Part shown: positions 6,876 through 33,066 of the stretch, piece by piece
Layout of the letters: each line of letters opens with the position of its first letter
Numbering within the stretch: position 1 is the first letter of the stretch
From: Streptomyces sclerotialus
GTDB lineage: Bacteria; Actinomycetota; Actinomycetes; Streptomycetales; Streptomycetaceae
NCBI RefSeq assembly: GCF_040907265.1
Contig: NZ_JBFOHP010000002.1
Span: forward strand, 6,138,001 to 6,202,000
DNA length: 64,000 nucleotides
Reading direction: 5' to 3'
The notes under the pieces: generated by a model
Seen by the model: only the letters and a program-made list of their open reading frames with translations
Told to the model about the DNA's origin: nothing
Databases searched by the model: none
Position numbers and translations under genes: made by a program

Positions 6876-7529
6876 GTGCGTGTACTCGTCGTCGAGGACG
6901 AGCAGCTGCTCGCCGATGCGGTGGCCACCGGACTGCGCCGGGAGGCCATGGCGGTCGACGTGGTGTACGACGGCGCGGCCGCGCTGGAGCGCATCGCGGT
7001 CAACGACTACGACGTCGTCGTGCTGGACCGCGACCTGCCGCTGGTCCACGGCGACGACGTCTGCCGCAAGATCGTCGAGCTGGGCATGCCCACCCGCGTC
7101 CTGATGCTGACCGCCTCCGGCGACGTCAGCGACCGTGTCGAGGGCCTGGAGATCGGCGCCGACGACTACCTCCCCAAGCCCTTCGCCTTCACCGAGCTGA
7201 CCGCCCGCGTACGGGCCCTCGGGCGCCGTACGACCGTGGCGCTGCCGCCGGTCCTGGAGCGGGCCGGCATCAAGCTCGACCCGAACCGCCGCGAGGTCTT
7301 CCGCGACGGCAAGGAGGTCCAGCTCGCGCCGAAGGAGTTCGCGGTGCTGGAGGTCCTGATGCGCAGCGAGGGCACGGTCGTCTCGGCCGAGCAGCTGCTG
7401 GAGAAGGCGTGGGACGAGAACACCGACCCGTTCACGAACGTGGTCCGGGTGACCGTCATGACGCTGCGCCGCAAGCTGGGCGAGCCCGCGGTGATCGTGA
7501 CCGTACCGGGCTCCGGTTACCGGATCTGA
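6876..7529 (+). CDS. cutR: Two-component response regulator CutR, OmpR family
   Basis: This 217-aa protein has a receiver domain (residues 1-115; phospho-acceptor Asp51 in VVVLDRDLP, conserved Lys in YLPKPF) and an OmpR/PhoB winged-helix DNA-binding domain (about 125-217, ending VTVPGSGYRI). The sequence is almost identical to what I recall of Streptomyces CutR (SCO5862 in S. coelicolor). The GTG start follows GAGGAAGGAC. The cutS start lies 5 nt after the stop, so both are one operon. CutRS was first linked to copper metabolism and later to extracytoplasmic protein folding and redox state. Confidence 0.95.
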   Translation: MRVLVVEDEQLLADAVATGLRREAMAVDVVYDGAAALERIAVNDYDVVVLDRDLPLVHGDDVCRKIVELGMPTRVLMLTASGDVSDRVEGLEIGADDYLPKPFAFTELTARVRALGRRTTVALPPVLERAGIKLDPNRREVFRDGKEVQLAPKEFAVLEVLMRSEGTVVSAEQLLEKAWDENTDPFTNVVRVTVMTLRRKLGEPAVIVTVPGSGYRI

Positions 7530-24034: not shown

Positions 24035-26086
24035 GTGTCCAAACTGACCGACGTGCCCAAACGCATCTTGATCGGGCGCGCACTGCGCAGCGACAAGCTG
24101 GGAGAGACCCTTCTCCCGAAGCGCATCGCACTCCCCGTCTTCGCCTCCGACCCGCTCTCCTCCGTGGCGTACGCGCCCGGGGAGGTGCTGCTCGTCCTGT
24201 CCGTGGCAGGCGTGTCCGCGTACCACTTCAGCCCGTGGATCGCGCTCGCCGTCGTGGTGCTGATGTTCACGGTCGTGGCGTCGTACCGGCAGAACGTGCA
24301 CGCGTACCCGAGCGGCGGCGGCGACTACGAGGTGGCCAACACCAACCTCGGCCCCAAGGCGGGGCTCACCGTGGCCAGTGCGCTGTTGGTCGACTACGTC
24401 CTCACCGTCGCCGTCTCCATCTCCTCCGGAGTGGAGAACCTGGGGTCGGCGATCCCCTTCGTGGTCGAGCACAAGACGCTCTGCGCCATCACGATGATCG
24501 TCCTGCTGACCCTGATGAACCTGCGTGGTGTGAAGGAGTCCGGCAAGCTCTTCGCCATCCCGACGTACATCTTCGTCGTCGGCGTCTTCGCCATGATCAT
24601 CTGGGGCGCCTTCCGCGGCGTGATCCTCGGCGACTCCATGAAGGCCCCCACCGCCGACTACACCATCCACGCCGAGCAGGGCGGCCTCGCGGGCTTCGCG
24701 CTGGTCTTCCTCCTGCTGCGCGCGTTCTCCTCCGGCTGTGCGGCGCTCACCGGCGTCGAGGCGATCTCCAACGGCGTGCCCGCCTTCCGCAAGCCGAAGT
24801 CGCGGAACGCCGCCACGACGCTGGCGCTCATGGGCGGCCTGGCCGTCACCATGTTCTGCGGCATCATCGTGCTGGCCATGGTCACCGGCGTGAAGATGGC
24901 CGAGAAGCCCGCCACCGACCTGCTGCACAACGGACACCCGGTCGGCTCCGGCTACACCCAGAACCCGGTGATCTCGCAGGTCGCGGCCGCCGTCTTCGGC
25001 GACGGCACGCTGCCCTTCATCATCCTGGCCGCCGCCACCGCACTGGTCCTCTTCCTCGCCGCGAACACCGCCTACAACGGCTTCCCGCTGCTCGGCTCGA
25101 TCCTCGCGCAGGACCGCTACCTGCCGCGCCAGCTGCACACCCGCGGCGACCGGCTCGCGTTCTCCAACGGCATCGTGCTGCTCGCCGGCGCCGCGGTGAT
25201 ACTCGTCTACATCTACGGTGCCGACTCCACGCGCCTGATCCAGCTCTACATCGTGGGCGTCTTCGTCTCCTTCACGCTCAGCCAGATCGGCATGGTCCGG
25301 CACTGGAACCGCCACCTGACCACGGAGAAGGAGCCGGCCAAGCGCCGCCGGATGCACCGCTCCCGCGCGATCAACGCGTTCGGCGCCACCTTCACCGGCC
25401 TCGTCCTGGTCGTCGTCCTGGTGACGAAGTTCAGCCACGGCGCCTGGGTCGCCCTGCTCGGCATGGTCATCTTCTACGTGACGATGACCGCGATCCGTAA
25501 GCACTACGACCGGGTCGCCGAGGAGATCGCCGCGGCCGACTCGCCCGACGACGAGGTCGCCCGCCCCTCCCGCGTGCACTCCATCGTCCTGGTCTCCAAG
25601 GTCCACAAGCCGACCCTGCGTGCCCTGAACTACGCCAAGCTGATGCGCTCCGACTCCCTCGAAGCGGTCAGTGTGGACGTCGACCAGGCCGAGACCAGGG
25701 CGCTGCGCGAGGAGTGGGAGCGCCGCGGCATCGAGGTCCCGCTGAAGGTCCTGGCCTCCCCCTACCGGGAGATCACCCGCCCCTTCATCGAGTACGTGAA
25801 GTCGCTGCGCAAGGAGAGCCCGCGCGACGCGGTCTCCGTCTTCATCCCGGAGTACGTCGTCGGCCACTGGTACGAGCATCTGCTGCACAACCAGTCCGCG
25901 CTGCGCCTGAAGGGCCGGCTGCTCTTCACCCCGGGCGTGATGGTCACCTCCGTCCCCTGGCAGCTGGACTCCTCCGAGGCCGCCAAGGTCCGCGCCCGCA
26001 AGCGCGCCGAGTGGAACGCGCCCGGCTCGGTCCGCCGCGGCCCGGTCGCCCAGCCGAAGAAGGAGAAGGCGGCCACGAAGAAGTAG
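24035..26086 (+). CDS. KimA-like APC-family permease (probable potassium importer)
   Basis: This 683-aa protein has about 12 transmembrane helices of the APC superfamily (KRIALPVFASDPLSSVAYAP at the start; SGGGDYEVANTNLGP in loop 2) and a soluble C-terminal domain of ~190 residues from about 490. The N-terminal pattern (rILIGRpLrs..., LSSVAYAP) and domain layout match Bacillus KimA, a K+/H+ symporter with a cytosolic domain that binds c-di-AMP. Potassium transport is inferred from that family and from nearby trkA, RCK and kdpDE genes. The TrmA-like gene follows after 105 bp. Confidence 0.8.
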   Translation: MSKLTDVPKRILIGRALRSDKLGETLLPKRIALPVFASDPLSSVAYAPGEVLLVLSVAGVSAYHFSPWIALAVVVLMFTVVASYRQNVHAYPSGGGDYEVANTNLGPKAGLTVASALLVDYVLTVAVSISSGVENLGSAIPFVVEHKTLCAITMIVLLTLMNLRGVKESGKLFAIPTYIFVVGVFAMIIWGAFRGVILGDSMKAPTADYTIHAEQGGLAGFALVFLLLRAFSSGCAALTGVEAISNGVPAFRKPKSRNAATTLALMGGLAVTMFCGIIVLAMVTGVKMAEKPATDLLHNGHPVGSGYTQNPVISQVAAAVFGDGTLPFIILAAATALVLFLAANTAYNGFPLLGSILAQDRYLPRQLHTRGDRLAFSNGIVLLAGAAVILVYIYGADSTRLIQLYIVGVFVSFTLSQIGMVRHWNRHLTTEKEPAKRRRMHRSRAINAFGATFTGLVLVVVLVTKFSHGAWVALLGMVIFYVTMTAIRKHYDRVAEEIAAADSPDDEVARPSRVHSIVLVSKVHKPTLRALNYAKLMRSDSLEAVSVDVDQAETRALREEWERRGIEVPLKVLASPYREITRPFIEYVKSLRKESPRDAVSVFIPEYVVGHWYEHLLHNQSALRLKGRLLFTPGVMVTSVPWQLDSSEAAKVRARKRAEWNAPGSVRRGPVAQPKKEKAATKK

Positions 26087-26191
26087 GGAGCACGCTCCCC
26101 GGTGGTCATGAGGGGGGTACGGCGGGCCGTAGACTAGAAGGCTGTTGTCCGCCGCACCCCCCTTCCGCACTTTCTCTGGAGCTCGCTCGCC

Positions 26192-27541
26192 ATGCCGCAA
26201 GAACCGAAGAACCCGCAGGCCGGCACCGAGCGGAAGTCCCTGGTCGGCGAGGAGTACGAGGTCGAGGTCGGCCCCGTGGCGCACGGCGGCCACTGCATCG
26301 CCCGCACGGACGAGGGCCAGGTCCTCTTCGTACGCCACGCCCTCCCCGGCGAGCGCGTGATCGCCAAGGTCACCGACGGCGAGGAAGGCGCCCGCTTCCT
26401 CCGCACCGACGCGGTACGGATCCTGTCCGCCTCCAAGGACCGCGTCGAGGCCCCCTGCCCCTTCTCCGGCCCCGGCCGCTGCGGCGGCTGCGACTGGCAG
26501 CACGCCAAGCCGGGCGCCCAGCGCCGCCTCAAGGGCGAGGTCATCGCCGAACAGCTCCAGCGCCTCGCGGGCCTCACCCCCGAGGAGGCCGGCTGGGACG
26601 GCACGGTCGTACCGGCCCCCGGCGACAAGGTCCCCGCCGGCGAGGTCCCGTCCTGGCGCACCCGCGTCCAGTACGCCATCGACGCCGAGGGCCGCGCGGG
26701 CCTCCGCAAGCACCGCTCCCACGAGGTCCAGCCCATCGACCGCTGCCTGATCGCCGCCCCCGGCGTCTCGGAACTCGGCATCGAGAAGCGCGAGTGGCCG
26801 GGGATCGCCACCGTCGAGGCCATCGCCGCCACCGGCTCGAACGACCGCCAGGTCATCCTCACCCCGAAGCCCGGCGGCCGCCTCCCCCTCGTCGAACTCG
26901 ACAAGCCGGTCTCGGTCATGCGCGTCGGCGAGAAGGACAAGGGCGTCCACCGCGTCCACGGCCGCCCCTTCGTCCGCGAACGCGCCGCCGACCGCACCTG
27001 GCGCGTCGGCAACGGCGGCTTCTGGCAGGTCCACCCGCAGGCCGCCGACCTCCTCGTCGAAGCGGTCATGCGCGGCCTGATGCCCAAGAAGGGCGACATG
27101 GCCCTGGACCTCTACTGCGGCGTCGGCCTCTTCGCGGGCGCGCTGGCCGACCGCGTCGGCGACAAGGGCGCCGTCCTCGGCATCGAGTCCGGCAAGCGCG
27201 CGGTGGAGGACGCCCGCCACAACCTCGCCGACGACGACCGCGTCCGCATCGAACACGGCAAGGTCGACCAGATCCTCCCCCGTACCGGCATCACCGACGT
27301 CGACCTCGTCGTCCTCGACCCGCCCCGCGCCGGCGCCGGCCGCAAGACCGTCGACCACCTCGCCTCCCTCACCCCCCGCCGCATCGCCTACGTCGCCTGC
27401 GACCCGGCCGCCCTGGCCCGCGACCTCTCCTACTTCGCCGCGGCCGGCTACGTCCCGAAGCGCCTCCAGGCCTTCGACCTGTTCCCGATGACGCACCATG
27501 TGGAGTGCGTGGCGATTCTGGAGCGGGCGAAGCGGGGATGA
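26192..27541 (+). CDS. TrmA/RumA-family RNA 5-methyluridine methyltransferase
   Basis: This 449-aa protein has an N-terminal TRAM domain (about 17-75, with GPVAHGGHCIAR), a Fe-S cluster motif CPFSGPGRCGGCDWQH plus a later Cys in IDRCLI, an SAM-binding domain with LDLYCGVGLFAGAL and DPPRAGAG, and catalytic VACDPAALARDL. It methylates uridine C5 in tRNA or 23S rRNA. The last ~12 codons (MTHHVECVAIL...) are duplicated at 33008-33066, so the extreme C-terminus (ERAKRG) may have been replaced when the island inserted. Start ATG 26192. Confidence 0.93.
   Translation: MPQEPKNPQAGTERKSLVGEEYEVEVGPVAHGGHCIARTDEGQVLFVRHALPGERVIAKVTDGEEGARFLRTDAVRILSASKDRVEAPCPFSGPGRCGGCDWQHAKPGAQRRLKGEVIAEQLQRLAGLTPEEAGWDGTVVPAPGDKVPAGEVPSWRTRVQYAIDAEGRAGLRKHRSHEVQPIDRCLIAAPGVSELGIEKREWPGIATVEAIAATGSNDRQVILTPKPGGRLPLVELDKPVSVMRVGEKDKGVHRVHGRPFVRERAADRTWRVGNGGFWQVHPQAADLLVEAVMRGLMPKKGDMALDLYCGVGLFAGALADRVGDKGAVLGIESGKRAVEDARHNLADDDRVRIEHGKVDQILPRTGITDVDLVVLDPPRAGAGRKTVDHLASLTPRRIAYVACDPAALARDLSYFAAAGYVPKRLQAFDLFPMTHHVECVAILERAKRG
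27486..27521 (+). repeat. Left 36-bp direct repeat at the island border
   Basis: This lies in the 3' end of the RNA methyltransferase gene and matches 33008-33043 at 35 of 36 positions (only C/T at the eleventh base differs). Similarity stops abruptly on both sides. The position fits an attL-like site of an element that integrates in a gene's 3' end. Confidence 0.85.
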
Positions 27542-27882
27542 CCTGCGTTTTCTTTGAAATGTTCGGGTCCGACCGGGGCGCTTGACCTGTTTCCCGAAGT
27601 GCACCGCGTGGGGCCTCTCGCAGGCTTCCGCTGCGCGTCTCATCTGCGGCTTCGCGCTGCGGTGCGCGGATGAGAAGCGCTGTGCCGCGACCTCGTGAGG
27701 GACGAAAAGCCACGTACGAAGAGCCGAGCCGTCCGTACAGTCCCCCATCACACCCACTGCCCCACTGCTCGAGTCGATCGGCCGTCACCGCCGAATCACG
27801 GACGGTAGGGTTGAGAGACGATCGCAGCAGACACGGTGATTTCCGCAAGACACGAGCACGAGGGGGAGGGCGACGAGAGGAC
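27542..27882. other. 341-bp leader region of the island
   Basis: No ORF supported. It is less GC-rich at the left edge (TTTTCTTTGAAATGTTC) and carries a TAGGGT -10-like hexamer about 75 nt before the DUF262 start. This is probably the promoter of the three-gene operon. Confidence 0.4.
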
Positions 27883-29148
27883 ATGGTGGCGCTGGAGGAG
27901 AGTCAGGGGCGTACGCGGGGCCAACGGTCGGTCTTCGAGCGGTATCAGGATGCGGCGGCCGACGCAGGGGAGCTTGATTCCTCTCTGTTCTCCGTGGAGG
28001 TCACCGCTGACGGTCGGCCGACCGACATCGAGCGTGAGGAGGCCGAGGAGGAGGTGATCGAGCAGATCACCTCTCCCTTCGATCCCGAGCACATCGACAT
28101 CGACACCCGGACGACGACTGTCGATCTGCTGCTGTCCCGGCTGCGCAACGAGATGATCGACCTCGCCCCGGACTTCCAGCGCAAGGCGGGCATCTGGACC
28201 GATGGCAAGCAGAGCCGTCTCATCGAGTCACTGCTGCTGCGCATCCCCATCCCGTCTTTCTACGCCGCCGAAAAAAAGGACGGCAGTTGGGCCATCGTCG
28301 ACGGTATCCAGCGCCTCACGTCCATCGCCCGATTCTTGGAGCCGCAGACGGTCGGCGCCGATCCACTGCAGCTGACGGGCCTGGAGTACCTGCGTAACTT
28401 CGATGAGGCTGGCTTCGCGGACCTCTCCGGGAAGCTCCAGATCAGACTGCGTGAGACGGAGGTCGTCGTTCACGTCATCCGACGTGGCACACCCGAGCCG
28501 GTGATGTTCAACGTCTTCGCGCGCATCAACACCGGAGGCGAACCCCTGACCCGGCAGGAGATTCGGCACGCGCTCATCCCGGGACGGGCCCGCACGCTCC
28601 TCGCGGAGCTCGCAGAGACCAAGGAGTTCCAGCAGGCCACCGGTTACAGCGTCGTCGGCGACCGGATGGCCGACCGGGAGATGGTCCTCCGCTTCCTGGC
28701 TTTCCGGATGACTTCCCTCCATGCATACAAGCCCGGTGACTTCGACGCGTTCCTCGCCGAGGCGATGCACCAAGTGAACCGTCTCGACAGCGCGGACGAG
28801 GACCGGCTGCGGACCGAGTTCGTCACGGCGATGCTCGCGGCCAGGGAGATTTTCGGTCCCCACGCCTTCCGGAAGTACCGCCGAAACCAACAGCGCAAGT
28901 CACCCATCAACAAAGCGCTCTTCGAGGCGGTCGCCGTCAATCTCGCGAGCCTCGGCGACAACGATCGTGAGGCGCTGCGGCAGGCCGACGTCCTCGACGC
29001 CTTCGCGGAGCTCATGGAGGACGCGGAGTTCGAGCGTGCCATCTCTGTGGGCACTGGAGACGCCAGGAAGGTGCGCAAGCGGTTCGACGCCGTCAGGGAA
29101 CTGTTCGAGAATGCGCTCAGCGAGGCACGGAGAGACACCGAGCAGTGA
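27883..29148 (+). CDS. DUF262 domain protein (ParB/sulfiredoxin-like fold; GmrS-related)
   Basis: This 421-aa protein has an acidic N-terminal 70 residues, then the DUF262 core: PDFQRKAGIWTDGKQSRLIE, LRIPIPSFY, and the signature VDGIQRLTS (Asp140-Gly-Ile-Gln-Arg144), then RINTGGEPLTRQEIRHAL. In GmrSD type IV restriction and related systems this domain binds and hydrolyses NTP and controls a nuclease. No HNH (DUF1524) domain is fused here, so the effector must be separate. Codons for AEKKD give a run of seven A (28271-28277), a possible slippage site. Its stop overlaps the ATPase start (GTGA). Confidence 0.88.
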   Translation: MVALEESQGRTRGQRSVFERYQDAAADAGELDSSLFSVEVTADGRPTDIEREEAEEEVIEQITSPFDPEHIDIDTRTTTVDLLLSRLRNEMIDLAPDFQRKAGIWTDGKQSRLIESLLLRIPIPSFYAAEKKDGSWAIVDGIQRLTSIARFLEPQTVGADPLQLTGLEYLRNFDEAGFADLSGKLQIRLRETEVVVHVIRRGTPEPVMFNVFARINTGGEPLTRQEIRHALIPGRARTLLAELAETKEFQQATGYSVVGDRMADREMVLRFLAFRMTSLHAYKPGDFDAFLAEAMHQVNRLDSADEDRLRTEFVTAMLAAREIFGPHAFRKYRRNQQRKSPINKALFEAVAVNLASLGDNDREALRQADVLDAFAELMEDAEFERAISVGTGDARKVRKRFDAVRELFENALSEARRDTEQ

Positions 29149-30293
29149 TCAATCACATCAAGCTGATCAACTTCAAGGCGTTCCGGCGTCTGGAACTTCC
29201 CCTCGGCCCGCTGACCCTCCTCACCGGTCTCAATTCCTCGGGCAAGAGCAGCGTTCTGCAGGCACTGGGGTTGCTGCGGCAGTCGTACGAGACCCAGATG
29301 CTCATCCGGACCAAACGCGCCGGAGGCGGGTTGCTGCTCAACGGCGATCTCGTGGACCTGGGCACCGCGCAAGACGTCCTGCACGAAGACTTCGGCCCCG
29401 TGGAAGAACTCCCCGCCGTCGACGAGCCGCTCGTCGGCTTCGTCATCGAGGAGGACGGCGAGCAACGCACGTGGGCCGCCGCATACGACATTCGTCATCC
29501 GGACCGGGACGTCATGCCCCTGGCGGAGAGGTCGGTCCGCTCGCATCTGGCCGAGCAGCCGTTTCAGTACCTGCACGCCGACCGCATCACCCCGGCGGTG
29601 ACCTACCCGCGCTCCCACCAGATCGCCATCGCGCGCGGGTTCCTCGGCGTGCGAGGCGAGCACACCGTCAACTACCTACGCCACCACACGGAGCAGGACG
29701 TGCCCACGGAAGTGCCGGACGGTCCGCTCCGGCATCGCGGTGCCACGTCTCCCCAGCTCCTGGACCAGACGATCGCCTGGATGCAGGAGCTGTGTCCGGG
29801 GGTCAACATTGAGACAGACCCCGTCGAAGGCACCGACTCGGTCCGTCTCTCCTACGGCTTCGGCGGCACCGCCGGCATCAACGCCACCCGCCGCCGCCGG
29901 CCCACCCACGTGGGCTTCGGTCTGACCTATGCGCTGCCCATCGTCGTCGCCTGCCTCACCGCGACGCCCGAGAGCCTGATTCTGCTGGAGAACCCTGAGG
30001 CCCACTTGCACCCGAGGGGGCAGAGCAGGATGGCCGCTTTGCTCTCCGCGGCCGCCGCCACCGGTGCCCAGCTGATCGTCGAGACGCACAGCGACCACGT
30101 GCTGAACGGCGTCCGCGTCGCCGTGAAACGCGGCGCTCTTCAGCCGCATGACGCAGTCGTGCACTACTTCCGTGGCAATGGGGCGGGCACCGAGGTCGTC
30201 ACCCCCCGCATCGACAGGGACGGCATGCTCGAACAATGGCCAGAGGGCTTCTTCGACGAGTGGGAGAACTCGCTCGACCAGCTGCTGGACTGA
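29145..30293 (+). CDS. AAA ATPase with DUF3696 tail (SMC/OLD-like)
   Basis: This 382-aa ABC-type ATPase has Walker A GLNSSGKSS at 28-36, right after the INFKAFRRLELPLGPLTLL N-terminus typical of RecF/OLD-like proteins, then Walker B LILLENPEAHLHP at about 279-291 and the H-loop ETHSDHVLNGVR at about 313. The last ~50 residues fit DUF3696. Such ATPases pair with nucleases or toxins in phage defence. No TOPRIM nuclease domain is fused. GTG start overlaps the DUF262 stop by 4 nt. Confidence 0.9.
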   Translation: MINHIKLINFKAFRRLELPLGPLTLLTGLNSSGKSSVLQALGLLRQSYETQMLIRTKRAGGGLLLNGDLVDLGTAQDVLHEDFGPVEELPAVDEPLVGFVIEEDGEQRTWAAAYDIRHPDRDVMPLAERSVRSHLAEQPFQYLHADRITPAVTYPRSHQIAIARGFLGVRGEHTVNYLRHHTEQDVPTEVPDGPLRHRGATSPQLLDQTIAWMQELCPGVNIETDPVEGTDSVRLSYGFGGTAGINATRRRRPTHVGFGLTYALPIVVACLTATPESLILLENPEAHLHPRGQSRMAALLSAAAATGAQLIVETHSDHVLNGVRVAVKRGALQPHDAVVHYFRGNGAGTEVVTPRIDRDGMLEQWPEGFFDEWENSLDQLLD

Positions 30294-30320
30294 CGGCACG
30301 GGACGACACAGGGGGAAAGA

Positions 30321-31247
30321 GTGCCACTGCTGTTTCTGAATGAGAAGTCTTGGGGGACGGCCTCCGACCCGGCACAGGCCGAGCGGGCCATGGCTGACTT
30401 CGTGGCCGTCGTGCGTGCCGCCGCAGCTGCGGGAGGCACGGCCCTCGTGAGCGAGGTGGACGTCAAGGCACTGGACATCGCCGATGGTTATCCCGTCAAC
30501 AAGTGGATCGGCGCCAGTCCGCGAAACCGCGCCCTCTGGCAGCGCCTCCGGGCCTTACAGGGCCGCTCGCCTGTGCGGAGCGTCTTCCCCGCGGAGGACG
30601 CCGCCGACCATCTGGAATACCGTCACAACGGCGAGGTCGTCCACGGCCTGGGCGCCGCGCACTTCATGGACGGCATCGCCGTCAGCCTTCCGGTGGCTCG
30701 GCAGTGGCAGGCCGACAGCGTCACCCTGGAGCGCAGCGAACTCACCGAAGACGACGACGGCACGCTGGAAATGCGGCACGATACCGTCGACGTCCGGCAT
30801 CTGTCCGCCGAGCCGCATCTCGACGTGCATCTGGACTGGATCCGGGTGGCGCGCCGGAAGGGCGTCACCACCGGCTCGAGGATCTGGGACAGCTGCGCCG
30901 ATCTCTATCCGCACCTCACGTTCCTGCCGCGGGTCGAGGGCCAGCTCAGAGGCCTGAACCCGCAGTGGGTGGTACCCGTACGGCGGGCTCTGGAGCGTCT
31001 GGAGGAAGCCGTCGCCGCGTGGGACCCGGTGAGCGTGGCCGAGCCCGAGTGGCGGACCAAGGTGAGCCCGGAGGGCGAGACCCGTAAGCGCGTGTGCCGT
31101 TTCACCGATCTGGACGGGGAAACGCGCACCTTTGACCTGCACGCCCGATTCACCCCGGGTGTCGGCCGCATCCACTTCCGCCTGGTCCCGGAGGAGCGGA
31201 CGATCCGCCTCGCCCACATCGGCAGTAAGATCCGGCCGGAGGTTTAG
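30321..31247 (+). CDS. Unrecognised 308-aa protein, third gene of the DUF262/ATPase operon
   Basis: GTG start after GGGGGAAAGA, 27 nt downstream of the ATPase. I recognise no family. The N-terminus (LLFLNEKSWGT) begins with a short beta strand and a helical region. The middle has VVHGLGAAHFMDGIAVSLP. The C-terminus (TFDLHARFTPGVGRIHF...RTIRLAHIGSKI) is a beta-rich pattern that recalls RelE/HigB-type toxins with a final 'IG-x-K/H-I/L' strand. The protein is soluble and balanced in charge. Position as the last gene of a sensor/ATPase operon suggests the effector, but this is inference. Confidence 0.75.
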   Translation: MPLLFLNEKSWGTASDPAQAERAMADFVAVVRAAAAAGGTALVSEVDVKALDIADGYPVNKWIGASPRNRALWQRLRALQGRSPVRSVFPAEDAADHLEYRHNGEVVHGLGAAHFMDGIAVSLPVARQWQADSVTLERSELTEDDDGTLEMRHDTVDVRHLSAEPHLDVHLDWIRVARRKGVTTGSRIWDSCADLYPHLTFLPRVEGQLRGLNPQWVVPVRRALERLEEAVAAWDPVSVAEPEWRTKVSPEGETRKRVCRFTDLDGETRTFDLHARFTPGVGRIHFRLVPEERTIRLAHIGSKIRPEV

Positions 31248-31566
31248 GTTCTGTCTAAACAGGGGGCCCTGTCCTTCCGGCACCCTGGCCTTGGGTGCTG
31301 GCAACGGCTTGGGAATCGGCGGAGCTTCCGGCACCTGTATCTGCTTCCCCTTCACCGGTCCAACGATGCGCTGACCTTTTCTTTCCCTTATGAAGAACTG
31401 GTGCCGGCCCGGGCGCCGGCTTCGCGCTGGCGCAAGGGCAGTGCACCCTGGTCCTGTCCGGCCGGCACTCAACCTCTCTTCATCGGAAGACCTCGGCTCC
31501 TGCCCTGTGATCGTCGGGCGCACCCCGATTACCCTCAACTGCGAAAAGCCACTTCAGGAGCGGGTG
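31248..31566. other. 319-bp gap inside the island
   Basis: No ORF supported. It begins GTTCTGTCTAAACAG just after the third gene, contains a pyrimidine-rich stretch (CTTTTCTTTCCCTTATG) and, at 31519-31550, a sequence ending ACCCTCAACTGCGAAAAGCC that is imperfectly repeated at 32848-32882 on the other side of the next gene. Confidence 0.4.
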
Positions 31567-32823
31567 ATGAACAACGAGGTTCAACTGATCAGTGATGGTG
31601 ATGGACTGGCGGTCATCGGGAATGCGACGGATGTCGAACGCTTCCTCGCCTCTGAGGGACTGCCGTCGAAAGACCTCGGACTGCAACGGCTCAAGTCCGT
31701 CGTCGGTACCGGGGCTGTAGTCGGGCAGGAAGGTGCGGTGATTGCCGCCGACTCCGGTCGCTGGGTGAAGTTGACTTCCGAGTCGGCACAGCTCGTCAGG
31801 AAGTACGGGCTGAGGGAAAGCTCGAAGACGGGTCTCAGCACAGGTGTGGTGAGAAGGCACAACGGTCAGATCAGGGGATTCGTCGAATTCGTGAAGGGTC
31901 CCCGATCGCTTCTGACCAACCCGGCGATTGTTGCTGGTGCTGCTCGGATCATGGCGCAGGTTGCGATGCAACAGACCATGGATGAGATCACCGACTATCT
32001 CGCCACGATCGACGAGAAGGTCGATGACGTGCTGCGTGCCCAGAAGGATGCTGTGTTGGCCCGCATGACCGGAGGGGGTTTCGTCATCGAGGAGGCCATG
32101 ACCATCCGAGAGAAGAGAGGCAGGGTCGACGAGGTTACGTGGTCGAAGGTGCAGGCCGCGCCGGCGACGATCGCAGAAACGCAGGCGTACGCATTGCGAC
32201 AACTCGACGCACTCGCGGAGAAGATCGAGCGAAAGACCAAGGTCGGTGATCTCGCCACGACGGCCAAGGGCGCTGAGTCCGCGGTTCGGGAGTGGCTGGC
32301 TGTTCTGGCTCGCTGCTTCCAACTGCAGGACGCGATCGCCGTGCTCGAACTCGATCGGGTGCTGGACGCGTCTCCGGAGGAGCTGGATGGGCATCGCCTC
32401 GGATTGAAGGCCGCCCGGTTGGACCGGCTGGAACACATATCGCGGAGAACCGAGCGTCTGGTGGCCTGTATGAATGCGGCTGCCGGCACGGCCAACGCGA
32501 AGGTGCTGCTGCACCCGACCAAGTCCCCGGCCGTAGTCCAGTCGAGCAACCATGTCGCGACCGGCATCGATGACTTCCACGGGCGGCTCGGCATCGAGTC
32601 TGGTCGCCATTCACCGGAGGCGAGACGATGGGGGGAAGCGGCCGCGGAGGCGAGGGACAAGGCGCTCAAGACAGGAGCAAAGGGCGTCGATGCCGCCAGA
32701 AGCCTCGGCAACGAGACCCTCGACAGGGCCAGCTCGGTAAAGGGCAAGCTCTCCAGCGCGCTCGCCGAGCGAGCGCGCCGTCGGCGCGGGACGGAAAAGG
32801 AACACGACGACGAGGAAGGCTGA
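31567..32823 (+). CDS. Unrecognised 418-aa helical protein, accessory
   Basis: ATG 31567 follows AGGAGCGGGTG. The protein starts MNNEVQLISDGDGLAVIG and is mostly helical: a Gly/Ala-rich hydrophobic stretch at about 118-138 (PAIVAGAARIMAQVAMQQ), a coiled-coil-like segment IDEKVDDVLRAQKDAVLARM, and a long helical C-terminal half ending in a basic/acidic tail RRRRGTEKEHDDEEG. I have seen similar uncharacterised proteins in other actinobacteria, but no function is known to me. GC content (36/60 in a counted line) is clearly lower than in core genes, consistent with transfer. It is not coupled to the DUF262 operon. Confidence 0.75.
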   Translation: MNNEVQLISDGDGLAVIGNATDVERFLASEGLPSKDLGLQRLKSVVGTGAVVGQEGAVIAADSGRWVKLTSESAQLVRKYGLRESSKTGLSTGVVRRHNGQIRGFVEFVKGPRSLLTNPAIVAGAARIMAQVAMQQTMDEITDYLATIDEKVDDVLRAQKDAVLARMTGGGFVIEEAMTIREKRGRVDEVTWSKVQAAPATIAETQAYALRQLDALAEKIERKTKVGDLATTAKGAESAVREWLAVLARCFQLQDAIAVLELDRVLDASPEELDGHRLGLKAARLDRLEHISRRTERLVACMNAAAGTANAKVLLHPTKSPAVVQSSNHVATGIDDFHGRLGIESGRHSPEARRWGEAAAEARDKALKTGAKGVDAARSLGNETLDRASSVKGKLSSALAERARRRRGTEKEHDDEEG

Positions 32824-33007: not shown

Positions 33008-33066
33008 CGATGACGCATCATGTGGAGTGCGTGGCGATTCTGGTGCCGGAGGGGAAGCAAGGCTGA
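33008..33066 (+). pseudogene. Displaced 3' end of the RNA methyltransferase gene (right 36-bp repeat)
   Basis: Positions 33008-33043 repeat 27486-27521 (35/36). The fragment is still in frame from ATG 33010 to TGA 33066 and encodes MTHHVECVAILVPEGKQG, while the intact gene ends MTHHVECVAILERAKRG. So this is a second, separate gene end, as expected if an element integrated within the 36-bp core and split the original terminus off. The 350-bp gap 32824-33175 holds nothing else I can support. Confidence 0.8.

Follow-up and report, generated by a model that had tools for sequence, protein, structure and literature searches.

The three-gene operon and its identity

The window analysed here is a 64,000-nucleotide (nt) stretch of Streptomyces sclerotialus DNA (contig NZ_JBFOHP010000002.1, positions 6,138,001 to 6,202,000; source genome of 8.28 Mb), and its subject is an operon of three co-directional plus-strand genes that almost certainly encodes the anti-phage system Menshen (NsnABC). 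The open reading frame map of the window places the genes at 27883-29148, 29145-30293 and 30321-31247. Genes 1 and 2 overlap in the letters GTGA and genes 2 and 3 are separated by 27 nt, a tight packing that the first-pass annotation of this DNA had described correctly. The genes and their main features are listed below (E, expectation value; aa, amino acids).

27883..29148, +: NsnA, a DUF262 (GmrSD_N, ParB/Srx-like) protein of 421 aa without HNH/DUF1524; PADLOC NsnA E 7.2e-136, Pfam PF03235 E 1.2e-20
28300..28314, +: DGIQR, the nucleotide-binding motif of the DUF262 domain, at residues 140-144 of NsnA
29145..30293, +: NsnB, an OLD/PtuA-type ABC ATPase of 382 aa with a DUF3696 tail and no Toprim family reported; PADLOC NsnB E 2e-116, Pfam AAA_21/AAA_15/DUF3696
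29226..29249, +: Walker A of NsnB, GLNSSGKS, residues 28-35, from sequence and alignment
29988..30014, +: Walker B region of NsnB, ENPEAHLHP, residues 282-290, from the alignment
30141..30284, +: DUF3696 stretch of NsnB, residues 333-380; Pfam PF12476 E 7.5e-14
30321..31247, +: NsnC, the two-domain third protein, 308 aa; PADLOC PDLC03879 E 3.5e-104, residues 2-304
30900..31244, +: predicted C-terminal domain of NsnC, RelE/YoeB/ParE-like, residues 194-308; conserved positions E251, H274, R283, H285 and K303

In a PADLOC-DB search, the operon's three proteins matched the NsnA, NsnB and NsnC profiles nearly end to end. NsnA covers positions 12-383 of 385 in PDLC03877 (residues 38-413, numbered from a start one codon upstream), NsnB covers 1-343 of 345 in PDLC03878, and NsnC covers 3-303 of 305 in PDLC03879, with two other NsnC profiles matched at 1e-37 and 4e-30. 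Both NsnB and NsnC start with GTG, that of NsnB lying inside the GTGA overlap. We take the gene symbol Nsn to denote the Menshen system, which was reportedly named by Millman et al. in 2022. Because all three proteins match these profiles, we assign the operon to Menshen. It has the adjacency, shared direction and A-B-C order of that system and resembles it in all three proteins, gene order and lengths, and no tested feature separates the two. We know of no test of Menshen activity in Streptomyces.

Judged by its sequence, then, the operon is an already named system. The first-pass annotation had recognised a defence-type three-gene unit, and the matches to PADLOC's defence library agree. It had also offered the operon as a candidate undescribed system, a suggestion that falls to the very finding it had named as decisive against it, a match to a named defence system. 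Neither Pfam nor NCBIfam gives a family above cut-off for the third protein, which it could not place, but PADLOC's NsnC profile does place it. This missing family name is what speaks for an undescribed three-part system; with all three proteins matching named profiles at E <= 4e-104, we consider that idea ruled out for practical purposes, and a false "new system" comes off the list.

Other DUF262 systems fit less well. NsnA has in common with GmrSD, BrxU and SspE a DUF262 domain with the DG(Q/I)QR motif, whose D, G, Q and R are invariant in 17 of 17 aligned NsnA sequences. The DUF1524 domain of those proteins, named as their cutting domain in a review, was not found in NsnA; a Pfam scan returned no DUF1524 or HNH family at E <= 1, in keeping with the first-pass description of a DUF262 protein with DGIQR and no HNH. 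Type IV restriction of the GmrSD kind was rejected on this ground. The first gene of PD-T4-2 also encodes a DUF262 protein, and NsnA matches PD-T4-2_A at E 5e-41, but the NsnA profile (7e-136) outscores it by 312 bits. For PD-T4-2, a review lists a HEPN domain, and the scan of six window proteins (24035-32820) gave no HEPN family at E <= 1.

Linkage and distribution of Menshen

The linkage of the three genes is far beyond chance. NsnC picked out 14 loci in genome contigs; 13 of them (11 Streptomyces and 2 Pseudomonas relatives) show the order NsnA-NsnB-NsnC, L009 with a split NsnC being one of these, and the fourteenth, L015, holds only a 57-residue NsnC piece. Named Streptomyces relatives share NsnC at 64-89% identity. 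Across the genus, the NsnC profile was matched at E <= 0.001 in 39 of 295 genomes, as against none of 14 control genomes. Matches were strong (E <= 1.2e-71) in 20 of the 295, the window's own genome included. NsnB adjoins NsnC in all 20 of these, and the end of NsnA is visible in 19 (the fetched loci are short). The third protein is consistently linked to DUF262 and DUF3696 genes elsewhere, as the reading of the first-pass annotation required.

One result weighs against the specificity of this assignment: the NsnB profile was matched in all 14 control genomes and DUF262 in 8 of them. The case for Menshen therefore rests on the full-length scores, on NsnC and on gene order.

From the 19 genomes with weaker NsnC matches, 10 loci were cut out and the proteins of four were scanned. 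The L052 proteins form a divergent Menshen (NsnA E 1.7e-121, NsnB 4.7e-102, NsnC profile PDLC03914 8.2e-120), and the other three carry a HEC-07-like fusion described below. The partial NsnC matches L036 and L037 were left out of further comparison. Alignment A1 was built without L015 and without L009 (5995-6919, S. pseudogriseolus), where NsnC is split over two frames and Menshen lies just downstream of the TRAM methyltransferase gene.

Viral contigs were found via NsnB (n = 20, some of them near-duplicates). A gene of 294-336 aa follows NsnB in 18; in L063 the following gene is 252 aa long, and L065 stops at that point. PADLOC called NsnC in each of the 10 third proteins scanned out of these 18. 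A tagged NsnA precedes NsnB in 17 of the 20 contigs, two loci start at NsnB, and L057 shows none. Seven viral contigs (L060-L062, L064, L071, L073 and L075) have a longer NsnA frame of 637-658 aa (two frames in L062), with a 372-387 aa gene upstream of it. The start of that upstream gene presumably resembles a cytosine-5 DNA methyltransferase.

A fourth Menshen gene is possible in Streptomyces. In 6 of 11 Streptomyces relatives, NsnA is preceded at a distance of 43-137 nt by a gene of 381-406 aa, or 292 aa in L012 (L002 2282-3496; L003 2281-3498; L004 2274-3419; L010 121-1341; L011 2349-3554; L012 2628-3506), and pairwise identity among the six proteins is 49-81%. L006 and L009 retain remnants, and no match was found in the window or in L005, L007, L008, L013 and L014. 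The L002 protein has no Pfam or PADLOC family.

NsnC and the proposed mechanism

NsnC appears to consist of two domains. Its N-terminal half is strongly variable among relatives, and residues ~194-308 have a predicted RelE/YoeB-like fold. In structure matches of two NsnC models, the best rows are led by YoeB-type structures, one top row is titled YoeB/ParE, and the ParE toxins 6x0a, 8c24, 6xrw and 8c26 are among the VIA-align rows for the predicted domain. The five positions E251, H274, R283, H285 and K303 are conserved across very divergent relatives. These models make it very probable that the C-terminal domain adopts a RelE-like (BECR) fold. Given this predicted fold and the five conserved positions, NsnC is probably, though by no means surely, an RNase effector; an effector role for the third protein, proposed by the first-pass annotation, is the most likely one given the predicted domain. 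This reading can be tested, since it places the Menshen effector in the RelE/YoeB-like end of NsnC and names the residues involved. A 2025 article by Li et al. in Nucleic Acids Research (NAR) is said to be devoted to Menshen and may well already contain this domain reading.

The same architecture is in print under another name. An mBio 2025 paper (PMC11980606) describes as "novel" an operon, ptuXYZ, made up of a DUF262 protein without HNH, a PtuA-like ATPase and a two-domain third protein, with 17 operons published. There, the third protein, PtuZ, ends in a YoeB-like BECR domain and is read as the effector, and a PIN-like N-terminal domain is among the features of gene 3. Compared by this published description, the window operon also has DUF262 without DUF1524, a PtuA-like ATPase and, from our models, a predicted C-terminal BECR/YoeB-like domain in gene 3. 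The effector reading is therefore already published for this architecture. The paper seems not to use the name Menshen, and the comparison ties the two published names to one architecture.

The NsnC C-terminal domain also occurs outside Menshen. PADLOC scans of three HEC-07-like proteins, from the relatives L046, L049 and L051, covered proteins whose last ~150 residues match this domain with the same conserved residues. Their N-terminal part is unlike that of NsnC, and in L046, the one neighbourhood scanned, the partner is an SMC/LmuB-like ATPase instead of NsnB. At L046 26-4506, the NsnC-type domain is fused to the HEC-07-like protein, the SMC/LmuB-like ATPase gene adjoins it, and McrBC genes lie further on. 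This fusion locus may be an unnamed defence module.

We consider it reasonably probable that the operon is a Menshen system in which NsnA and NsnB form a sensor restraining NsnC, whose C-terminal domain cuts RNA. Family membership, gene order and intact ATPase and DUF262 motifs are findings from the sequences, and the NsnC fold is a prediction. This mechanism is modelled on known relatives of the first two proteins. OLD-type ABC ATPases are phage sensors that activate effectors, PARIS being an example, and DUF262 domains couple nucleotide hydrolysis to nuclease control, according to a review. By analogy, NsnA as a nucleotide-binding DUF262 protein and NsnB as an OLD/PtuA-type ABC ATPase, probably dimeric, would together keep NsnC inactive. 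The fast-varying N-terminal half of NsnC would link it to the sensor or to the phage trigger. Infection would lead to nucleoside triphosphate binding or hydrolysis, and the C-terminal domain would be released or activated. Once active, it would cut RNA and halt phage growth, probably at the cell's expense.

The most serious competitor, which we nonetheless think unlikely, assigns the destruction of phage DNA to NsnA, acting as a ParB/Srx-type nuclease (the role proposed for PtuX), and reduces NsnC to a regulator or sensor. A review links DUF262 proteins to the restriction of modified DNA, the ptuXYZ authors term PtuX a putative nuclease (PMC11980606), and the variability of the NsnC N-terminal half is sensor-like. 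Yet no nuclease family besides the GmrSD_N domain itself was found in NsnA at E <= 1, the DUF1524 cutting domain is not found there, and it is NsnC that preserves a residue set resembling an active site. Granting NsnC the effector role, its RelE-like domain could instead act as ParE does, on gyrase or another non-RNA target. The fold is common to ParE, and ParE toxins are among the structure matches; YoeB-type structures lead for both NsnC models, however, and the conserved residues (E, H, R and a basic one) probably suit an RNase better, which makes this improbable.

A further alternative makes NsnB an OLD nuclease with its Toprim domain as the effector. A review credits Menshen with an OLD nuclease, given as predicted, and its text adds a Toprim of the PF20469 family, although Menshen does not appear in the visible part of the PF20469 row of its table. 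NsnB is, as the first-pass annotation stated, an ATPase with DUF3696, and its ATPase motif residues are invariant in 20 of 20 aligned sequences. The 10 Pfam families that the scan gave for NsnB at E <= 1 include no Toprim, and the protein ends 64 residues past its ETHSDH motif. A Toprim effector was rejected on these grounds and seems to us very improbable. Our preferred effector is the putatively RNA-cutting C-terminal domain of NsnC.

A possible repeat-bounded insert behind a methyltransferase gene

Menshen lies between two copies of the 3' end of a methyltransferase gene.

26192..27541, +: TRAM-domain RNA (uracil-5-) methyltransferase gene, a core gene; its 3' end recurs on the far side of the module; from the family scan
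27486..27527, +: left copy of a 42-nt direct repeat, within the methyltransferase 3' end
31567..32823, +: passenger gene encoding 418 aa, of unknown family, lying between the two repeat copies
33008..33049, +: right copy of the repeat, 93% identical to the left one and continuing in frame with the methyltransferase as far as a stop codon

The methyltransferase gene was found in all 61 genomes of the genus searched. The repeat copies are 5.5 kb apart, and the clear genes between them are Menshen and the 418-aa gene. The passenger protein has a very weak PHROG match only, and no relative of it was found in 13 other Menshen loci. In the downstream loci of 20 of 20 relatives, DNA similarity to the window stops between ~25 bases before and 55 bases after the methyltransferase end. 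Within 12-14 kb of these loci there were no further window-matching pieces of more than 250 bases at E <= 1e-30, and a search at E <= 1e-20 for 14 other genes of the window downstream of the relatives' methyltransferase gave no match.

Copies of the methyltransferase 3' end recur across the genus. A shorter second copy lies downstream in 4 of the 20 relatives (L083, L086, L088 and L095). The copies in L088 (1260-12717) are 11.4 kb apart, with a type I restriction-modification set and IetA/IetS between them; the proteins scanned between the copies of L083 and L086 are not defence-like (a fatty acid desaturase and a Gln_amidase-fold protein). A degenerate 3'-end pattern has at least one copy in 178 of 199 genomes and at least two in 94 (69 with all copies on the same strand), these counts being pattern matches irrespective of the gene identity of each copy. 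The reversed pattern, used as a control, gave zero matches.

In 4 of the 20 Menshen genomes (the window's genome, G241, G166 and G162), Menshen is enclosed by the methyltransferase on one side and another copy of its 3' end on the other. In G069 it is 15 kb downstream of the methyltransferase, with no further copy found, and in G119 Menshen and a 3'-end copy share one contig; the remaining genomes have Menshen elsewhere or on other contigs. With the window's genome excluded, Menshen lies <=50 kb downstream in 4 of 19, for which uniform placement gives a chance of 3e-6 to 8e-6, an approximate null model that takes no account of shared descent or contig breaks. Among 11 genomes checked, a tyrosine/serine recombinase family was found between two copies in one (G171) and none in the other 10. 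Because such a recombinase is usually missing between the repeats, any such inserts may be mobilised in trans.

We tentatively join these observations in one reading, which we hold with less confidence than the mechanism above. Menshen would be cargo of a small repeat-bounded insert at a Streptomyces-wide integration hotspot, the 3' end of the core TRAM-type RNA methyltransferase gene, which receives varying defence modules, usually without a tyrosine/serine recombinase between the repeats and perhaps mobilised in trans. The RelE-like toxin domain of NsnC would be a shared module built into at least two different defence systems with ATPases (Menshen and the SMC-like/HEC-07 type), and a fourth, as yet unnamed gene may belong to Menshen in Streptomyces. 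Such a hotspot would be a place to seek further Streptomyces defence modules.

At other sites, the neighbours of Menshen include DISARM DrmA (L002), a Druantia-like helicase (L011) and Wadjet JetC (L012). In L008, another Streptomyces locus, Menshen is flanked by a different direct repeat of 90 nt, 96% identical (1163-1252 and 7317-7406), the left copy of which lies inside an upstream gene.

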